Source: an uncultured Gemmatimonadota bacterium (lineage in GTDB: Bacteria > Gemmatimonadota > Gemmatimonadetes > Gemmatimonadales > Gemmatimonadaceae). Taken from it: a DNA stretch of 15,233 nucleotides. The stretch is taken from assembly GCA_946887155.1 (NCBI GenBank), contig CAMPKM010000023.1:1-15233 (forward strand). Direction: 5' to 3'. Position 1 is the stretch's first letter. Every line of letters starts with the position of its first letter. The notes beneath the pieces were generated by a model, which ran no database searches, was not told where the DNA came from, and worked only from the letters and a program-made list of their open reading frames with translations. Both the position numbers and the translations under genes were made by a program. Shown piece by piece: positions 3,214 through 14,856 of the stretch.

Positions 3214-5604
3214 TTAATCCTCCCGTAACACCGAGGCGGGCGCCAGGCGCCGCGCCCCGAGTGCCGGGACAAGCGCCGCCAGGGCCGTCACCGCCAGGAC
3301 GCCGCCGGCGCATAACGCGTAAACGGACAGGTCCATCGGCTGCACGCCGTACAGGAACCCGGCAATGAGGCGCGAAAGCGCCATGGCGCCCGCGAGGCCG
3401 ATGACGATTCCCATCAGGCCCATGGAAACGCCGGACCACGTGACCAGCCTCACGACTTCTCCCGGACGCGCGCCAAGCGCCAGGCGCAGTGCGAGTTCGC
3501 GCCGCCGCTGCACCACCGCGTACGTCACCAGACCGAAGAGCCCGACCGCGGTGACCAGGGATGCCACCACCGCCAGCCAGATCGTGATGATGCCGAGCGT
3601 TCGTTCGGCCGAGATGGACTGGTCGAGATAGAAAGACACTGGATGGATTTCCGAGGCCGGGCTTCCCGGATCCACCGCGGTGGCCAGGGCACGCATTGGG
3701 GCAATGAGGGTGGAGGGCGGCACCGATGCCTTCAGCACGACGTTCAGGGTCTGCCCGTACCGGCTGATGGTTTGCCGGATCGGAACATAGATCTGGATTC
3801 GGGATGGTTCGCGCAGGGTGTAGTGGCGGACGTTCTTGGCGACACCGACGACCGTTCGATAAATCAGTTGACCGTCAGCCCCTCGCTCATCGATCGTGAC
3901 TTGTTGTCCAACCGCGTCCCTGCCTGGCCAGAATCGTTCGGCCATGGTCTCGTCGATGATCGCCACGGGCGCAGTGTCGTTCCGGTCGCCTCCGTTGAAC
4001 GACCGACCCTGGAGGAGCGGAACGCCAAGCGTGGTGAAGTAGTCCTCCGAGACCATGTTGAAAAGCACCGACGCTCCGGCCTCGATCGCTTCGGTAGCCC
4101 CATAGGGTTGGATGCGGACTTCCCAGGAACGGTCGCTGAGCGGAATGAGCAGGCTCGCCGAGGCGCTCATGACGCCGGGGATCGTGCGCGCTCGATCGAG
4201 AAGGGTTACGTAGTGGGCGAGCCACGGATCACGCGCGTTGGCGTTGGCGGTCGACGCCGCGATGCGCGCCATGAGCAGGCCGTCGTCATTGAAGCCCTTG
4301 TCGATCGTTCGCAGTTTCAGGAAGCTCGTGAGCAGAAGGCCGGCGGCGACGGCCAGCACGACGCTGAGGGCGGTCTCGCCAACGAGCAGGGCGGATCGGG
4401 CGCGCGTCCGGGGTGCCACGATCGAAGAGGATCCTCCGCGAAGCGTTTCCAGCAATCGCGCGGAGCCGGCGTAGCGAGCCGCGATCAGCCCGAAGATCAC
4501 GCCACCGGCGAGGCAGATCGCCAGCGTGCCCGTGACTGTCTGGACGTCGATCGCGATGCGATCGAGCAGGGATTTCGGCAGGTCCGACGGCAGCATCGGT
4601 ACCAGCGCCTCGACCAGCCCGCCGGCCAGCGCGAGAACGACGTGTTCGTAGAGGAACTGCCGCCTGAGGTCGGAACGATCGCCGCCCAGCGCCAGCCTGA
4701 CCGCCGCATCCCGGCGGCGATCCGCGGCGCGAGCCAGTACCAGTCCTCCCGCATTGCCGGTCGCGATGAGCATCACGATTGCGACCGCCGCGAGCAGGAG
4801 CCAGAGCTGCTGGTCGCGATCACCGATGAGGTAGTCGGAGAGCGACCGCATCGAGGGCAGGGCAGTCAGCGGACCGTTCTCCGCCTTCACGGCGGCGCCG
4901 GCGCGCTCGACATCGGCCGCGGCCGCGCGGATCGACGTACCCTGTCTCACTCGCGCGAATACTCGCGTACCGAATGCGGAACCGCGCTCGTCGAACGGCA
5001 GGTCGCGCATCGAGCCCATGTTGACCAGCACCGCTGGTTCCGTACGGGGAAACGAGAAATCGCCCGGCAGGACGCCAGTGATCGTGTGCGGAATGCCATC
5101 GAGCGTGATGGTGCGTCCGACGATGGTCGGATCAGCGCCGAATTCCGTCAGCCAGGTCGAGTGGCCCAGCATGGCCAGCGGCGCTGACCCTGGCTCTGTC
5201 TCACCCGGGAGGAAAGTTCGACCGATCTGCGGCCGCAGGCGAAGCACGCCAAAGAGATCTCCATAGACGGCGCCGCCGGTGAGCACCCTGGTCTCTGCGC
5301 CGGTGCTGAGATGGAAGCTCCAGCCGACCAGACCTCCGTAGGCTGCAAAGGAAGTCGTGCGGTCGCGCCAGTCACGCAGGTTGGGGATGGACGTCGAGAT
5401 GCCGAATCCGCGCGATGATGTCACGTCGATGGTGACGAGCTCCGCGGGATCATCGAAGGGCAGGGGCCGCAGCACCACCGCTCCCACGACGGCGAAGACC
5501 GCACTCAATCCGCCCACGCCGAAGGCAATGGTGGCGAGTTGCAGGGTGGTCGACCAGCGTGCGCGGAGGAGGGAGCGGATGCTAGTACGCAGCTGGCTGG
5601 TCAT
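3214..5604 (-). CDS. FtsX/MacB-like orphan ABC transporter permease (ADOP type)
   Basis: A 796-residue inner-membrane protein with the duplicated FtsX/MacB architecture. The first helix (about 20-45) runs into the family-typical RPLPFDDPAELV segment, followed by a large periplasmic MacB-like domain. A first FtsX block (about 265-335) contains RLALGG; helices follow near 360-375 and 408-428, then a second periplasmic domain (about 440-665) and a second FtsX block (about 670-790) with RLALGA and a C-terminal VLRED. Related two-domain permeases are abundant in Acidobacteria and Gemmatimonadota and often lack a neighbouring ATPase, as here. Some members carry an extra N-terminal PadR-linked region that is absent here. 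Substrate cannot be inferred; MacB relatives act in export or mechanotransmission. The ATG at 5604 has no strong Shine-Dalgarno. The formate dehydrogenase gene follows after 80 bp in the same direction, but a functional link is not implied. Confidence 0.85.
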   Translation of the reverse strand: MTSQLRTSIRSLLRARWSTTLQLATIAFGVGGLSAVFAVVGAVVLRPLPFDDPAELVTIDVTSSRGFGISTSIPNLRDWRDRTTSFAAYGGLVGWSFHLSTGAETRVLTGGAVYGDLFGVLRLRPQIGRTFLPGETEPGSAPLAMLGHSTWLTEFGADPTIVGRTITLDGIPHTITGVLPGDFSFPRTEPAVLVNMGSMRDLPFDERGSAFGTRVFARVRQGTSIRAAAADVERAGAAVKAENGPLTALPSMRSLSDYLIGDRDQQLWLLLAAVAIVMLIATGNAGGLVLARAADRRRDAAVRLALGGDRSDLRRQFLYEHVVLALAGGLVEALVPMLPSDLPKSLLDRIAIDVQTVTGTLAICLAGGVIFGLIAARYAGSARLLETLRGGSSSIVAPRTRARSALLVGETALSVVLAVAAGLLLTSFLKLRTIDKGFNDDGLLMARIAASTANANARDPWLAHYVTLLDRARTIPGVMSASASLLIPLSDRSWEVRIQPYGATEAIEAGASVLFNMVSEDYFTTLGVPLLQGRSFNGGDRNDTAPVAIIDETMAERFWPGRDAVGQQVTIDERGADGQLIYRTVVGVAKNVRHYTLREPSRIQIYVPIRQTISRYGQTLNVVLKASVPPSTLIAPMRALATAVDPGSPASEIHPVSFYLDQSISAERTLGIITIWLAVVASLVTAVGLFGLVTYAVVQRRRELALRLALGARPGEVVRLVTWSGVSMGLMGIVIGLAGAMALSRLIAGFLYGVQPMDLSVYALCAGGVLAVTALAALVPALGARRLAPASVLRED

Positions 5605-5779
5605 GATCGGCGTCGGTGAAGGACGGTTGTCTTGCGAGGTTCGACATCCGGACGCGGCAGCTCGTTTGAACGGGAGGAAACGGGTCGAAGCCGGCAGGAC
5701 GGCGGGCGATCGGGGCCGCCCGGGCCGCGTCAGGTGTCGTTAGGCGTCGGCCGGCAAATGGCTATCGGCAGGCTCACCA
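5605..5779. other. GC-rich intergenic stretch
   Basis: This lies between the divergent starts of the minus-strand permease and the plus-strand structured-RNA unit. I see no open frame with a convincing start and no clear promoter hexamers for the permease. G/C-rich self-complementary patches occur around 5703-5730, too loose to call a defined element. Confidence 0.3.
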
Positions 5780-5809
5780 TTGCGCGATGACACACCGCAA
5801 TCCTATATT
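5780..5809 (+). promoter_or_regulatory. Sigma70-like promoter of the structured RNA/micro-ORF unit
   Basis: A TATATT -10 hexamer (5804-5809, five of six consensus bases) lies 18 bp after a weak TTGCGC -35 (5780-5785). Transcription would start near 5816 and run through four hairpins and the micro-ORF to the intrinsic terminator ending at 6323, a transcript of roughly 0.5 kb. Only the -10 is strong. Confidence 0.35.
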
Positions 5810-5987
5810 CGTCCATCACTTCGCGTTCGCGCGGGGACTTCGCTTGGCTGCATCGCGACAACAAACAATCGAGTGCGCTTCCCTGGCCGCTGATGTTTAC
5901 GTGGCTGGCAGGTTCGAGGCCCCACCCTTGAAAGTTTGCGAGGTCTCTTTTACCAGTTTATGTGTCGCTTTTTGATTCTCTGTCATT

Positions 5988-6177
5988 GAAACCGGGCTTC
6001 TGGTCCGGTTTCGCTTATGTAGAGATGGTCGTCCTGCGGAACGTAGCCCCGCTGGACATGCTGTTTGAGAAGACCAGTCTGTCGCAGTTTTTTGCGCCGA
6101 AGTTCCGGCGCGCGGAACCAGTCGGGTGTTTCGCATCCGGCTGTTGCCGACCAATCCACCGGGGGATTGGACCGGCG
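5988..6177 (+). ncRNA. Candidate structured leader or ncRNA with four hairpins
   Basis: Four stem-loops follow one another. Hairpin 1 is GAAACCGG/CCGGTTTC (5988-6012, 8 bp, 9-nt loop). Hairpin 2 is GTCCTGCGG/CCGCTGGAC (6031-6057, 9 bp with one T-T mismatch). Hairpin 3 is GCGCCG/CGGCGC (6094-6111). Hairpin 4 is CCAATCC/GGATTGG (6151-6170), extended outward by TGCCG/CGGCG with a small internal loop (6145-6177). They end 17 nt before the Shine-Dalgarno of a micro-ORF, and a strong terminator follows that ORF. I could not match the region to tmRNA, 6S, RNase P, SRP RNA or a riboswitch I know. It may be a cis-regulatory leader or an independent RNA. Boundaries are those of the visible stems; true ends may be near 5816 and 6323. 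Confidence 0.4.
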
Positions 6178-6204
6178 TTCAACACCCTCTCCATGGAGAG
6201 AACA

Positions 6205-6261
6205 ATGGCTGCGAAGAAGAAGAAGGCTGCGAAGAAGGGCGGCGCCAAGAAGAAGAAGTAG
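6205..6261 (+). CDS. 18-residue Lys/Ala-rich microprotein
   Basis: ATG at 6205 is preceded by GGAGAG (6195-6200) at normal Shine-Dalgarno distance, and the frame ends in TAG. The peptide is MAAKKKKAAKKGGAKKKK: ten lysines, six Ala/Gly-type spacers and no acidic residue. It resembles the tails of histone H1-like and other nucleic-acid-binding bacterial proteins, so nucleic-acid or ribosome binding is a reasonable guess, not shown. Lysines are all AAG. The frame stays open upstream to a GTG at 5962, but that stretch has no Shine-Dalgarno, lies in hairpin-rich DNA and looks like no protein I know, so the short start is preferred. It sits between the structured leader and an intrinsic terminator and forms a one-gene unit. 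It could also be a decayed remnant of a longer gene. Confidence 0.5.
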   Translation: MAAKKKKAAKKGGAKKKK

Positions 6262-6289
6262 GCAACCGCTCGTTGTTTGTAACAAGGAA

Positions 6290-6323
6290 GCCGGCGCTTT
6301 TCAGCGCCGGCTTTCTTGTTTTT
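6290..6323 (+). terminator. Strong Rho-independent terminator
   Basis: The stem GCCGGCGC (6290-6297) and GCGCCGGC (6304-6311) pairs perfectly around TTTTCA and is followed by TTTCTTGTTTTT. The complementary A-rich sequence upstream of the stem means it could also end the 51-residue minus-strand gene that converges on it from 6395. Confidence 0.9.
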
Positions 6324-6394
6324 GAGAGGCAGGATTTACGCGGTACCTCAACCGACGGAACGGCGAGTCTCCGCGAATTGACGCGGATGTGAAA

Positions 6395-6768: not shown

Positions 6769-7539
6769 CTACGCGACCGACTTGCGCGCCAGGAACGTTC
6801 GCGATTCCCTGCCGTCCACCACCGAAACATCCCAGCCGCGATACCGGGCCCGAAGCTCTTCCATGGTCACGTCTGATTCATTGGAATTGAACGTGTCCAC
6901 GAGGTGAACTCCGCCTTCGAGCGTCGACGTCTTGAGCATGTCGATCACCCGGGTCCGCTGCTCAGGGCTGAGTCCACGAAACGCTGACGGCGTCACGACG
7001 ACGGCGTTGAGCGGGGCATCGGGCGACCAGGCGTCGAGCCCGATCGGCTGGCTGTTCACGCGCGACATCAGTCCGACCTGGCTGGCCGCCGACACCACCC
7101 GTTCGACGACCTCCTCGTTGTCGTCGAGCGCGGTGACCTGGCAGCCGCGGGCGGCGAGGTACAATACCGGGCCCTCACGCCGCACCCCGGCTACCAGAAC
7201 CCGTGAATCCGCGTCAGGCACGATTTCCCGAACCAGCGGTGCGTCCGCCGCCATGCCCCAATGCGCATGATCGCGATACATCGCGAGCAGCTTCAGCCGC
7301 CGCTTCCGCCAGGTGGAATACTTCGGGAGGCGAAGGCGCTGCCCGATGATCCGGTCGACCTCGGAACAGAGCACGAGCTCGTCGAACTCGGGCTGCGTCC
7401 GGTCGCGGAGAGCCGACACGGCTTCGTCGCCGATCCGGAGAATCGCCGGGCGCGGAAGGGAGAACTTGTAGTTCTCGATCTCCTGCTCGACGTACACCTC
7501 GTATTCGTGCTTCAGTGAAACCTGCAATCGCGGAGCCAT
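6769..7539 (-). CDS. Degenerate class I SAM-methyltransferase-like protein
   Basis: A 256-residue soluble protein. An N-terminal region (1-105) rich in charged and aromatic residues has no fold I recognise. A Rossmann-like methyltransferase fold follows: strand and glycine loop VLVAGVRREGP (114-124), acidic end of strand 2 ALDDNEE (137-143), a strand 4 region LNAVVVTPSAF (177-187), then a helix and EGGVHLVD (208-215). The usual DxGxGxG loop is not intact, so SAM binding is uncertain and it may be an inactive relative. I chose ATG 7539, with GAGGGA just upstream, over a GTG at 7578 that adds an unrelated basic leader. It is divergent from mutM across a 136-bp gap. Its target is unknown; no neighbouring pathway suggests one. 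Confidence 0.7.
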   Translation of the reverse strand: MAPRLQVSLKHEYEVYVEQEIENYKFSLPRPAILRIGDEAVSALRDRTQPEFDELVLCSEVDRIIGQRLRLPKYSTWRKRRLKLLAMYRDHAHWGMAADAPLVREIVPDADSRVLVAGVRREGPVLYLAARGCQVTALDDNEEVVERVVSAASQVGLMSRVNSQPIGLDAWSPDAPLNAVVVTPSAFRGLSPEQRTRVIDMLKTSTLEGGVHLVDTFNSNESDVTMEELRARYRGWDVSVVDGRESRTFLARKSVA

Positions 7540-7613
7540 GTCCCTCGGCCGGCGGGTCGCGCGACAAGTTAGGCACACTCGTCAGGCAGGGCAAGAGTGA
7601 ATCGAAGACGCTC

Positions 7614-12584: not shown

Positions 12585-12626
12585 GTGGTCCGGCAGACGT
12601 CTGGCCGGGATCCGAGAGAGCGGCCT

Positions 12627-12655
12627 AGAGTAACCGGGCACGAAAGGTAATACAA
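12627..12655 (-). promoter_or_regulatory. Possible promoter of tRNA-Arg(CCG)
   Basis: On the minus strand, TTGTAT (12655-12650) and TACTCT (12632-12627) are spaced by 17 bp, placing a start near 12620, about 36 nt before the mature tRNA. Each hexamer matches only three of six consensus bases, so the call rests on spacing and position. Confidence 0.25.
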
Positions 12656-12694
12656 GCGACCGGGCAGGCCGTTCTCCACCGCCGTTCGGTGTGT

Positions 12695-13384
12695 TTATCG
12701 TTCTTGCCGACGTTGCTCCACCGGACTACCGACCGCGGACTCGACGCGCGGTATCGGCTCTGCACGTTCCTGCAGCAATTTCGTCGTGTAGCGCTGGTTT
12801 TCGGAGATGCGCTCGACTTCGACGGCAATCGCGTCGACCGCGTGCTTGATACCCGTCACATCCTGGGCCGAAGCAAACAATTGTGTGGCCCGGCGCGTCG
12901 CCCGCCGCCACAGGAACCGTCCAACCAGGATAGAGCCAAGAATGAGCCCCAACGCCTGGGCGATCATCAGGCTTTCATAGCGTTTCACGAGTAGTGCTTC
13001 GCGCGCCGAAAAATCCTCACCAGGCACCGAGATCACGGTCGCATTGCCTCCCTCGCCCTGCGTCTCCGCGCTGCCGACGCCCCGTGCAACCGCGTTGGCG
13101 ATGGCCTCATCGGCTTGCGCAATCTGGCGTTGGAGCTCACCACCCCTCGTTCCAAGCTCACTGATCTGCTGCTCATACTCCTGCATGAGCCTTCGATCGA
13201 GCGTCGGATTCGAGGACGAATTCGCGCGTGCCTCGGCGTTCAACCGCTCCTGCGCGAGCCTGCCTCGTTGTTCGGTGACCCGTTCGAGCTGGTCGCTCAA
13301 TACGTCGCGGCTGCGCAAAAGGGTTTGAAGCTCAGCCTGCGTCTGCACTGCGCCTCGTCCCTGGATTGAACTCATGACCTTCAT
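12695..13384 (-). CDS. Coiled-coil protein with one transmembrane helix
   Basis: A hypothetical protein of 229 residues from ATG 13384. Residues about 12-105 are Gln/Glu/Arg/Leu-rich with heptad character (QTQAELQTLLRSRDVLSDQL), interrupted by a Ser/Asn patch near 56-59. A short Gly-rich linker leads to a single hydrophobic helix at about 139-158 (SLMIAQALGLILGSILVGRF), followed by a basic stop (WRRATRRA) and a second short helical segment (about 178-208). This suggests a membrane-anchored scaffold; positive charge after the helix suggests that end is cytoplasmic. ATG 13384 has GAGG at a good distance; ATG 13420 (241 residues) is also possible. It follows the TetR gene in the same direction after about 100 bp. 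I recognise no family and infer no function. Confidence 0.7.
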   Translation of the reverse strand: MKVMSSIQGRGAVQTQAELQTLLRSRDVLSDQLERVTEQRGRLAQERLNAEARANSSSNPTLDRRLMQEYEQQISELGTRGGELQRQIAQADEAIANAVARGVGSAETQGEGGNATVISVPGEDFSAREALLVKRYESLMIAQALGLILGSILVGRFLWRRATRRATQLFASAQDVTGIKHAVDAIAVEVERISENQRYTTKLLQERAEPIPRVESAVGSPVEQRRQER

Positions 13385-13488
13385 GGCCGCCTCGTGATTT
13401 CTCGGAGCAGGGAGCTTCATGTCATGTTCGACCAAACGCAATCACGCCCCTGCAGGTTTCGCGGATTCATCGCGTTGGCCCGGTTGCA

Positions 13489-14073
13489 TCACGACGGTTG
13501 CTGATTCAAGCCGCGCCACACCAGGTCGTGAAACCGCTCATCCATCTGCTTTGCGGTGAACTGTGCCGACCGGCCCATCCACCACTTCGCCAGTTCCATC
13601 GCCATAGCCCCGAAGACGCGGGCGGTGGCGCTCAGTGGAAGCTCCCGTGGTGCGACGCCGAGCTCGCGAAGCCGGCGCTCGATGATGCGAGCGAGATGTC
13701 CGCTGGCGATGTCGAGGATGGCTTCCATTCGTCCGGCGCGGGAGAGCGCATCGGCGAAATCCCTCGACTCGCCGAAGTGCGCGAACAGTTCCGCAATCGG
13801 CGCCACCCGGCGCGAGGTGCCCACCGTTCGATCGAAGTGAGCTTCAGTCAGGGACAACATCCGCTCCAGGTCAGTCAGCAGGAAGTCGTCCTTGTTGCGG
13901 AAGTGGGAATAGAACGTGGACCGCCCGACACCAGCGCGATCGAGCAGGTCCTGCACCGTGATCGAGTCGAATTCCCGCGTCTGCAGCAGTTCCACCATGG
14001 CTGCGCTCAACGCCCGGTACGTGCGTTCGGTGCGGGCGTCGAGTCGCGGGCGTTCGTCGAGATTCTCGTTCAC
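13489..14073 (-). CDS. TetR/AcrR-family transcriptional regulator
   Basis: A 194-residue one-component repressor from GTG 14073. The N-terminal DNA-binding domain shows RTYRALSAAMVELL (helix 1), then the helix-turn-helix ITVQDLLDRAGVGRSTFYSHF (38-58) and the typical NKDDFLL continuation. The rest is an all-helical ligand-binding and dimerisation region with no motif that identifies the ligand. The frame runs open to 14181, but the extra residues overlap the divergent gene and the palindromes, so the GTG is preferred; AGGA lies very close to it. The divergent six-helix membrane protein starts 90 bp away, and the gap contains two palindromes, so the regulator most likely controls itself and that neighbour. 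Confidence 0.88.
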   Translation of the reverse strand: MNENLDERPRLDARTERTYRALSAAMVELLQTREFDSITVQDLLDRAGVGRSTFYSHFRNKDDFLLTDLERMLSLTEAHFDRTVGTSRRVAPIAELFAHFGESRDFADALSRAGRMEAILDIASGHLARIIERRLRELGVAPRELPLSATARVFGAMAMELAKWWMGRSAQFTAKQMDERFHDLVWRGLNQQPS

Positions 14074-14079
14074 GATCCT

Positions 14080-14102
14080 GAACAAATGACGGCGGTTTGT
14101 TC
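14080..14102. promoter_or_regulatory. Candidate TetR operator
   Basis: GAACAAA (14080-14086) and TTTGTTC (14096-14102) form a perfect 7-bp dyad around 9 bp. It lies 7 bp upstream of the TetR GTG and about 60 bp before the divergent membrane-protein start. Position and symmetry fit an autoregulatory TetR-type operator. Confidence 0.55.
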
Positions 14103-14142
14103 GGCAGGCAATGCCGGCTCCCGCGGGGCTCGCTACGCTTGC

Positions 14143-14155
14143 GGGAACGTTTCCC
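14143..14155. promoter_or_regulatory. Second palindrome before the membrane-protein gene
   Basis: GGGAA-CGT-TTCCC is a perfect 5-bp dyad with a 3-bp centre, ending 7 bp before the ATG at 14163. It could be an operator or a hairpin affecting translation. It differs in sequence from the GAACAAA dyad, so it may bind a different protein. Confidence 0.3.
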
Positions 14156-14162
14156 CACACCC

Positions 14163-14786
14163 ATGCCCAACGAAAGACCATACGGACTTGCGCTCATCCT
14201 CGGCACCCTGGCCGGTGTCGTAACCATGGCATTTCACCCGACCGGGCATGCGCTGCTCGCGGACTTCGACCGGGTTGCGCTGATCAATCGTTCGGTGCAC
14301 GCCTTGGCGATCGCTGGCACCATCACGACGGTGGCAGGGCTCGTCGGATTGAGGAGAAGTTTCGCGCCGCAGTCGGTCCTCGTTGACCTGGCGATAGTGT
14401 CGTATGGATTCGGTGCCCTGGCGGTGATGTTTGCCGCCATCGCCAGCGGGTTGCTCGGCACCGAGCTATCGCGGCGGGTTCTCGAGGCGGGTGATGGAGG
14501 TCGCGCCGTCTGGGAGACCGTCATGGTCTACAACTTCGCGTTGAATCAGGCGACGACCCAGGTCTTCGTGGTTGCGGCGTCAATCGGGATACTGCTCTGG
14601 TCCCTGGCCATGCTCGAGGTCCCGCGGTTCGGCAAGTCGTTAGGCCTGACCGGAATCGTGGTCGGCGGTGCCGCGGTCGTTGCCATTCTGGCTGGTGTAA
14701 CGAGGGACATTCACGGCTTCGGCGCGATCGTCCTGGGGCATGGCGTCTGGCTCGTCTGGACCGGCAGTCGGTTGCTGAAGGGCTGA
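14163..14786 (+). CDS. Six-helix membrane protein of unknown function
   Basis: A 207-residue protein starting MPNERPYG, with six predicted membrane helices at about 8-24, 44-63, 76-98, 133-151, 160-179 and 184-203. A short hydrophilic stretch (about 100-130) separates the third and fourth helices. Conserved-looking polar positions inside or near helices include HPTGH (25-29), RSVHA (43-47), NQATTQ (128-133), RDIHGF (181-186) and LGHG (191-194); the histidines could bind metal or a cofactor, but this is a guess. I recognise no named family. It is divergent from the TetR gene, and small multi-helix proteins in that setting often act in transport or stress response. ATG 14163 is chosen because earlier residues overlap the regulatory palindromes. 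A plausible hairpin follows the gene at 14808-14834. Confidence 0.8.
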   Translation: MPNERPYGLALILGTLAGVVTMAFHPTGHALLADFDRVALINRSVHALAIAGTITTVAGLVGLRRSFAPQSVLVDLAIVSYGFGALAVMFAAIASGLLGTELSRRVLEAGDGGRAVWETVMVYNFALNQATTQVFVVAASIGILLWSLAMLEVPRFGKSLGLTGIVVGGAAVVAILAGVTRDIHGFGAIVLGHGVWLVWTGSRLLKG

Positions 14787-14800
14787 CGGGGTCGAGTACG

Positions 14801-14834
14801 TGAAAGAGCCCGCGAGTCGTTTGACCTCGCGGGC
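14801..14834 (-). terminator. Terminator of the tRNA cluster
   Basis: GCCCGCGAG (14808-14816) and CTCGCGGGC (14826-14834) form a perfect 9-bp stem. On the minus strand the stem is followed by TCTTTC, a short U-rich tract, and it lies 22 nt past the tRNA-Pro 3' end. On the plus strand it could slow transcription of the membrane-protein gene, but no U tract follows there. Confidence 0.6.
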
Positions 14835-14856
14835 CATCCATGTGAATCTGTCTCAG

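Follow-up and report, generated by a model that had tools for sequence, protein, structure and literature searches.

In RNA thermometers and other hairpins that sequester the Shine-Dalgarno (SD) sequence, the SD is enclosed in a short hairpin that precedes the start codon; we know of no RNA thermometer that has a separate fixed-loop hairpin upstream. The leader described here resembles these elements in that its SD is predicted to be paired in a weak hairpin (H3), modestly so in the window itself (the whole 15,233-nucleotide stretch of DNA that was analyzed). A second close comparison is with the autogenous leaders of ribosomal proteins, a kind catalogued in PMC7247131. Like those, the leader is structured and stands 5′ of the gene for a small basic protein, with the translation of that gene as its presumed target; unlike those, the gene here encodes a K/R-rich protein of low complexity or a SWIB protein, not a ribosomal protein. 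In Chlamydia, HctA (Hc1) is controlled by the sRNA IhtA, according to two papers (PMC3469542 and PMC4355289). Here, too, we propose that a basic, H1-like chromosome protein is controlled posttranscriptionally; however, the chlamydial regulator is a separate trans-acting sRNA, whereas the conserved RNA here is on the mRNA itself. The protein also shares the K/A/R-rich low complexity of Hc2 (PF07382, NF038052), and a 114-amino-acid relative matches it weakly, but the relatives score below the curated cutoffs and the protein of the window has just 18 amino acids.

The best reading of this locus, given the comparisons below, is that the leader of an H1/Hc2-like microprotein is a new cis-regulatory RNA leader. 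Consistent with the original prediction, which had matched the region to no known RNA class, a search of the whole window with Rfam 15 at the gathering score returned four tRNAs only, with nothing in 5780-6323. Relaxing the search to an E value of ≤10 gave, as the best candidate near the unit, Thr_leader at 6262-6320 (31.3 of 55 bits), which we rejected as a terminator look-alike. No literature on this leader was found among open-licence PMC papers, and an earlier description elsewhere is possible. A new structured RNA, a cis-regulatory leader for a microprotein, and a dual-function RNA had all been offered as readings; the second is the one that the comparative data back.

First relatives of 6090-6321 came from blastn, which found them in 121 of the 179 genomes of the family set (handles up to G179), many of these matching just AAG-rich coding sequence. 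Two covariance models were used, with a match threshold of E ≤ 0.001 for the counts of both. R1 spans H2, H3 and the ATG and derives from an alignment (A2) of 25 sequences with the exact core; R2 models the 29-nt H2 hairpin alone and contains neither the SD nor the ORF. R1 matched 112 of the 395 genomes in the phylum set, 111 of them in the family set, and a K/R-rich ORF follows all 111 best sites there (in G117 the ORF is cut at 10 codons by the contig end, and an overlapping other contig shows its continuation; in G130 the ORF is that of a SWIB protein whose tail is K-rich). With R2, 22 of 39 family genomes had a site, and the best site was always 5′ of a K/R-rich ORF; even at E ≤ 1, six of the 39 gave no match, possibly because of an assembly gap or divergence, and one of the six, G091, has an R1 match. 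Across the phylum set, R2 matched 95 genomes, 93 of them in the family set, and in all 93 the site stands before a K/R-rich ORF. Matches outside the family were taken as chance: that of R1 in G293 has a lipoprotein-like ORF downstream, and near those of R2 in G255 and G409 no K-rich ORF was found.

Essentially one convincing site per genome was found with R2. A second match in G141 lies in another gene, in unrelated sequence, and weak matches in G110, G111, G154, G026, G092 and G116 are likewise unrelated sequence, those of the last four falling in a gene reading PIQGSAADLIK, which we take to be polA. At E ≤ 1, the leader was the sole match among the 150 candidates scored per genome in G049, a carrier whose genome is one contig of 4,636,964 bp, and in G088; the rRNA of these two genomes gave no R2 match at E ≤ 1. 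ACCGGG does occur in the rRNA of both, by eye without complementary arms, and ACCGGGGG is present in the 16S rRNA of G088 and absent from that of G049. Mimicry of an rRNA site, as in autogenous ribosomal-protein leaders, finds no support in these two genomes, though a looser resemblance may exist.

Because R2 finds one site per genome, before the same kind of gene, the element appears to be the leader of one kind of gene rather than the mark of a regulon. No regulon was found by the R1 and R2 searches, which covered one phylum (395 genomes); the sole other gene encodes a protein with a SWIB domain and a K-rich tail. SWIB sites are second sites in G125, G128 and G129 and the only site in G130, with the SWIB identity established by Pfam for the G130 protein (L133) only. 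In these four genomes, the SWIB-type proteins (L133, L151, L152 and L153) have a K/A-rich N-terminal tail and a weaker copy of the hairpin upstream. The leader and the microprotein start appear to have been duplicated onto a SWIB gene. Overall, what was found is a conserved structure at a near-fixed place 5′ of one type of gene, the arrangement by which a cis-regulatory mRNA leader is recognized.

The core of the leader is H2 (6147-6175, plus strand), which has an inner 7-bp stem closed by an ACCGGG hexaloop, a 1x2 internal loop and an outer 3-bp stem. In A3, 102 rows (94 distinct) aligned by and fitted to the model, each of the 10 H2 pairs is changed on both sides in at least one row, and 96.2% of the cells of H2 and H3 pair. 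Double-sided changes fill 171 cells, whereas shuffles average 38.4 and none of 500 comes as high, and slid controls stay far lower; the covariation score of 0.416, against 0.145 shuffled, was also reached in 0 of 500 shuffles, two antisense rows (L103, 828-880, and L061, 1490-1540) being counted in this covariation. In A5, a MAFFT alignment made without structure and thus not fitted to the model, 8 of the 10 pairs have double-sided changes and the score is 0.387 versus 0.127 shuffled (0 of 500 as high), for 37 ungapped rows out of 58 distinct hairpins, the antisense rows excluded; this covariation, like the R2 searches, leans toward the regular form because 21 irregular hairpins (SWIB rows, and stems that are weak or shifted) are not in A5. 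The sequences behind all counts given here are related and hence do not represent independent events.

The counts of loops and arms, and those below for H1, SD pairing, reading frame, ORF and terminator, omit the two antisense rows and the G293 row (L147). Among 101 distinct sequences, the hexaloop is ACCGGG in 98 and ACCGGT in 3, carried on 29 different arm pairs. Six consecutive pairs are present in 81 of the 101 stems; the other 20 have fewer, several through a single mismatch, others with a shifted or weak stem. The inner stem includes 15 G-U pairs, which point to RNA, and the distance from the loop to the ATG stays within 33 to 46 nt. The way H2 has evolved shows that its RNA shape is maintained by selection, probably to set the amount of the lysine-rich protein.

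H3 (6187-6200, plus strand; CTCTCCATGGAGAG) is a hairpin of only 4 to 5 bp that encloses the SD, GGAG at 6195-6198. The predicted pairing probability of the SD in 101 sequences is 0.87, compared to 0.56 with shuffled flanks, and 63 of the sequences are inside the top tenth of their own 60 controls; 38 are outside, including the window (0.75 versus 0.60, with 21 of 60 controls as high), and since the sequences are related these controls are descriptive only and carry no probabilities. In subclade relatives without the upstream CUCC, a UCUC or CUC lying downstream appears by eye to be a possible pairing partner for the SD. Immediately 5′ of H2 is H1 (6119-6143, plus strand), a hairpin of variable sequence. 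The 42 nt preceding H2 have a mean z of -2.0 relative to shuffles in 104 sequences (81 below -1 and 45 below -2), and 4 of 10 H1 pairs show double-sided changes among 11 sequences from the window's subclade, with no fixed sequence. When four members taken from across the family were folded, H1, H2 and H3 appeared in every prediction. Farther upstream, H0 (6094-6111, plus strand; GCGCC/GGCGC) is kept in the window's subclade; its 5 pairs are all formed in 11 of 11 sequences, with two varying on one side and none on both.

The micro-ORF (6205-6261 including the stop, plus strand) encodes MAAKKKKAAKKGGAKKKK, 18 lysine-rich residues, and in relatives the ATG is likewise at the end of the model. 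Together with the SD and the intrinsic terminator, it matches the description first given of it. Across 105 distinct loci, including the SWIB sites of G125, G128 and G129 and excepting the cut ORF, lengths range from 14 to 137 amino acids (median, 32). A 99-amino-acid in-frame extension (5962-6261) was considered and rejected: in 56 of the 105 loci the frame is closed by a stop codon fewer than 40 codons 5′ of the ATG. The window's own frame is open for 91 codons, and there the extension may exist. As for the similarity to Hc2, the 114-amino-acid relative matches PF07382 with an E value of 1e-6 and 29.4 of 40 bits and NF038052 with 1.9e-5 and 24.9 of 135 bits; neither it nor a 113-amino-acid SWIB protein (11.6 bits) attains the PF07382 gathering score of 40 bits, and relatives of 98 and 34 amino acids have no PF07382 match. 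Judging from composition, the microprotein would be expected to bind nucleic acids. The terminator (6281-6324, plus strand, arms 6281-6297 and 6304-6320) is seen in the fold and was found by our own terminator search; a simple terminator scan did not list it. Under a lenient rule applied without a shuffle control, 89 of the 105 loci have a terminator-like site no more than 130 nt past the stop.

Upstream of this conserved part, the picture changes. The original prediction had drawn a single coherent RNA from about 5816 to 6323; instead, conservation begins at about 6094 to 6119, and 5787-5975 is what is left of a deleted tldD-tldE operon. All four stems that it named (5988-6012, 6031-6057, 6094-6111, the H0 above, and 6145-6177, which takes in H2) are present in the sequence, and the fold of 5940-6323 has an energy of -168.6 kcal/mol (z, -5.65), which none of 100 shuffles equalled. 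The expectation that the stems would be conserved and covary in relatives is strongly borne out for H2; the first two (both plus strand) are without comparative support. They are stable in the fold, and only G088 aligns there; read off that alignment, 5988-6012 has lost one pair, and 6031-6057 has lost one and gained one. As conserved elements these two stems are unproven. H1 and H3, absent from the earlier list, are both better supported. That the unit is richer in AT holds relative to its left flank, with a GC in 250-base windows of 0.54-0.59 over 5750-6374 versus 0.65-0.70 over 4500-5749, but low GC is not limited to it, since values of 0.56-0.62 continue rightward as far as about 6999.

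The near-consensus -10 is there as described, TATATT at 5804-5809, and with TTGCGC at 5780-5785, a weak -35, and an 18-nt spacing it forms a candidate promoter on the plus strand; a strict sigma-70 scan gave no sites. The motif TCCTATATTCG is present in the window, in G088 (L043), upstream of tldD in L001 and upstream of the hairpin in L005. About 3 kb separates it from the hairpin in L001, with two genes for PmbA/TldD domains in between. In the window, 5787-5975 (plus strand) is a 62-codon open remnant in which the start of tldD is fused to the end of tldE: its beginning is identical to L001 tldD at 58 of 79 bases (73%), and its end, PPLKVCEVSFTSL, corresponds to PPLKVRDFTFTSL in L146, the last residues of tldE. 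The same scar is present in G088. By these comparisons, a tldD-tldE operon was deleted here, leaving 5780-5975 as its scar with the promoter retained; the deletion is common to the window and G088, and it explains both the -10 and the lack of a gene in 5787-5975. In L005 the motif sits 462 nt 5′ of the hairpin core, and the leader of L005 may therefore be transcribed from this promoter. A TldE-like C terminus (FTSLSDA or FTSLSEA) lies within 700 nt upstream in 28 of the 105 loci by hand count; an automatic tally of 32 had included two scars and two spurious matches. By eye, a promoter-like TTTACG-16 nt-TATAGA is found within the 3′ end of the tldE gene of L003 (5545-5572, minus strand) and L004 (2274-2301, minus strand), and in these two close relatives it may be where the leader transcript starts.

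Several neighboring genes can be described as well. Adjoining the unit, 3214-5604 (minus strand) encodes an ADOP-family duplicated permease (TIGR03434, above cutoff). The gene at 6769-7578, which adjoins the unit in several relatives, has weak methyltransferase similarity with no family above cutoff; its six relatives in named genomes are all from MAGs labelled Gemmatimonadaceae or Gemmatimonadetes, which places the window in that group. About 2.2 kb of the window (12608-14842) finds no blastn counterpart in G088 (L043), which is collinear elsewhere and in which the matches on either side almost touch.

The position of the element, its covariation, the fixed loop and the paired SD all fit cis translational control, and we give a probability of roughly 0.62 to the reading in which a structured leader, with a factor that reads the loop, controls translation of the H1/Hc2-like microprotein in cis. 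We imagine 6119-6323 as the 3′ portion of an mRNA whose leader is structured, with H1 and H2 standing upstream. Because the SD would be tied into H3, initiation would be damped by default. A factor reading the ACCGGG loop of H2 would then set how often H3 opens, and that frequency would determine the output of the polycationic microprotein. As that factor we would first consider the lysine-rich product itself, acting in feedback, which is a guess; an RNA-binding protein or an RNA pairing with the loop could also serve. We infer the transcription of the leader, the direction of control, the factor and any effect of H2 on H3.

One can envision a more specific version, in which the ACCGGG-loop leader is a new class of RNA in Gemmatimonadaceae and an autogenous sensor, the microprotein binding its own mRNA and closing the SD hairpin. 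An H1-like microprotein, down to 14 to 18 residues, would thereby count its own free pool. We put this forward tentatively and consider it doubtful as a whole.

It is unlikely, in our view, that the hairpins are a constitutive feature of the mRNA, shielding a short message from RNases or fixing a level of translation with no regulation. A protective stem would be kept in shape without a fixed sequence, as H1 is, and the message is indeed short, with its terminator-like site at most loci, but protection has no need of a fixed loop, and the H2 loop stays nearly invariant while its arms change. Less probable still is that the RNA acts also or mainly in trans, as a dual-function RNA whose H2 loop pairs or kisses with another RNA or a second copy of itself. 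CCGG is self-complementary, the invariant hexaloop is exposed, and the predicted transcript has its own terminator; however, no partner was identified, R2 gives essentially one convincing site per genome, and the element keeps one place before one gene.

We regard it as very improbable that H2 is a DNA operator. An inverted repeat close to a gene is what a transcription factor might recognize, but the many arm pairs with compensating changes around a fixed center, the G-U pairs and the near-constant distance from the ATG all argue otherwise. Chance or coding constraint in an intergenic stretch that folds by accident is hardly credible: GC-rich sequence folds easily and the window pairs its SD weakly, but covariation that no shuffle equalled refutes chance for H2, and conservation extends across the family.

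The cis-acting leader favored here is a strongly covarying motif without an Rfam match, from a little-studied soil phylum, and it is tied to one kind of gene. Lysine-rich histone-like genes, down to 14 residues, are easily missed by their coding sequence, and the leader flags them. If the cis reading is true, the leader would be a second solution for dosing bacterial H1-like proteins, beside the trans-acting sRNA of Chlamydia; and if the leader is moreover an autogenous sensor, it would be a bacterial parallel of the control of chromatin-protein dosage.
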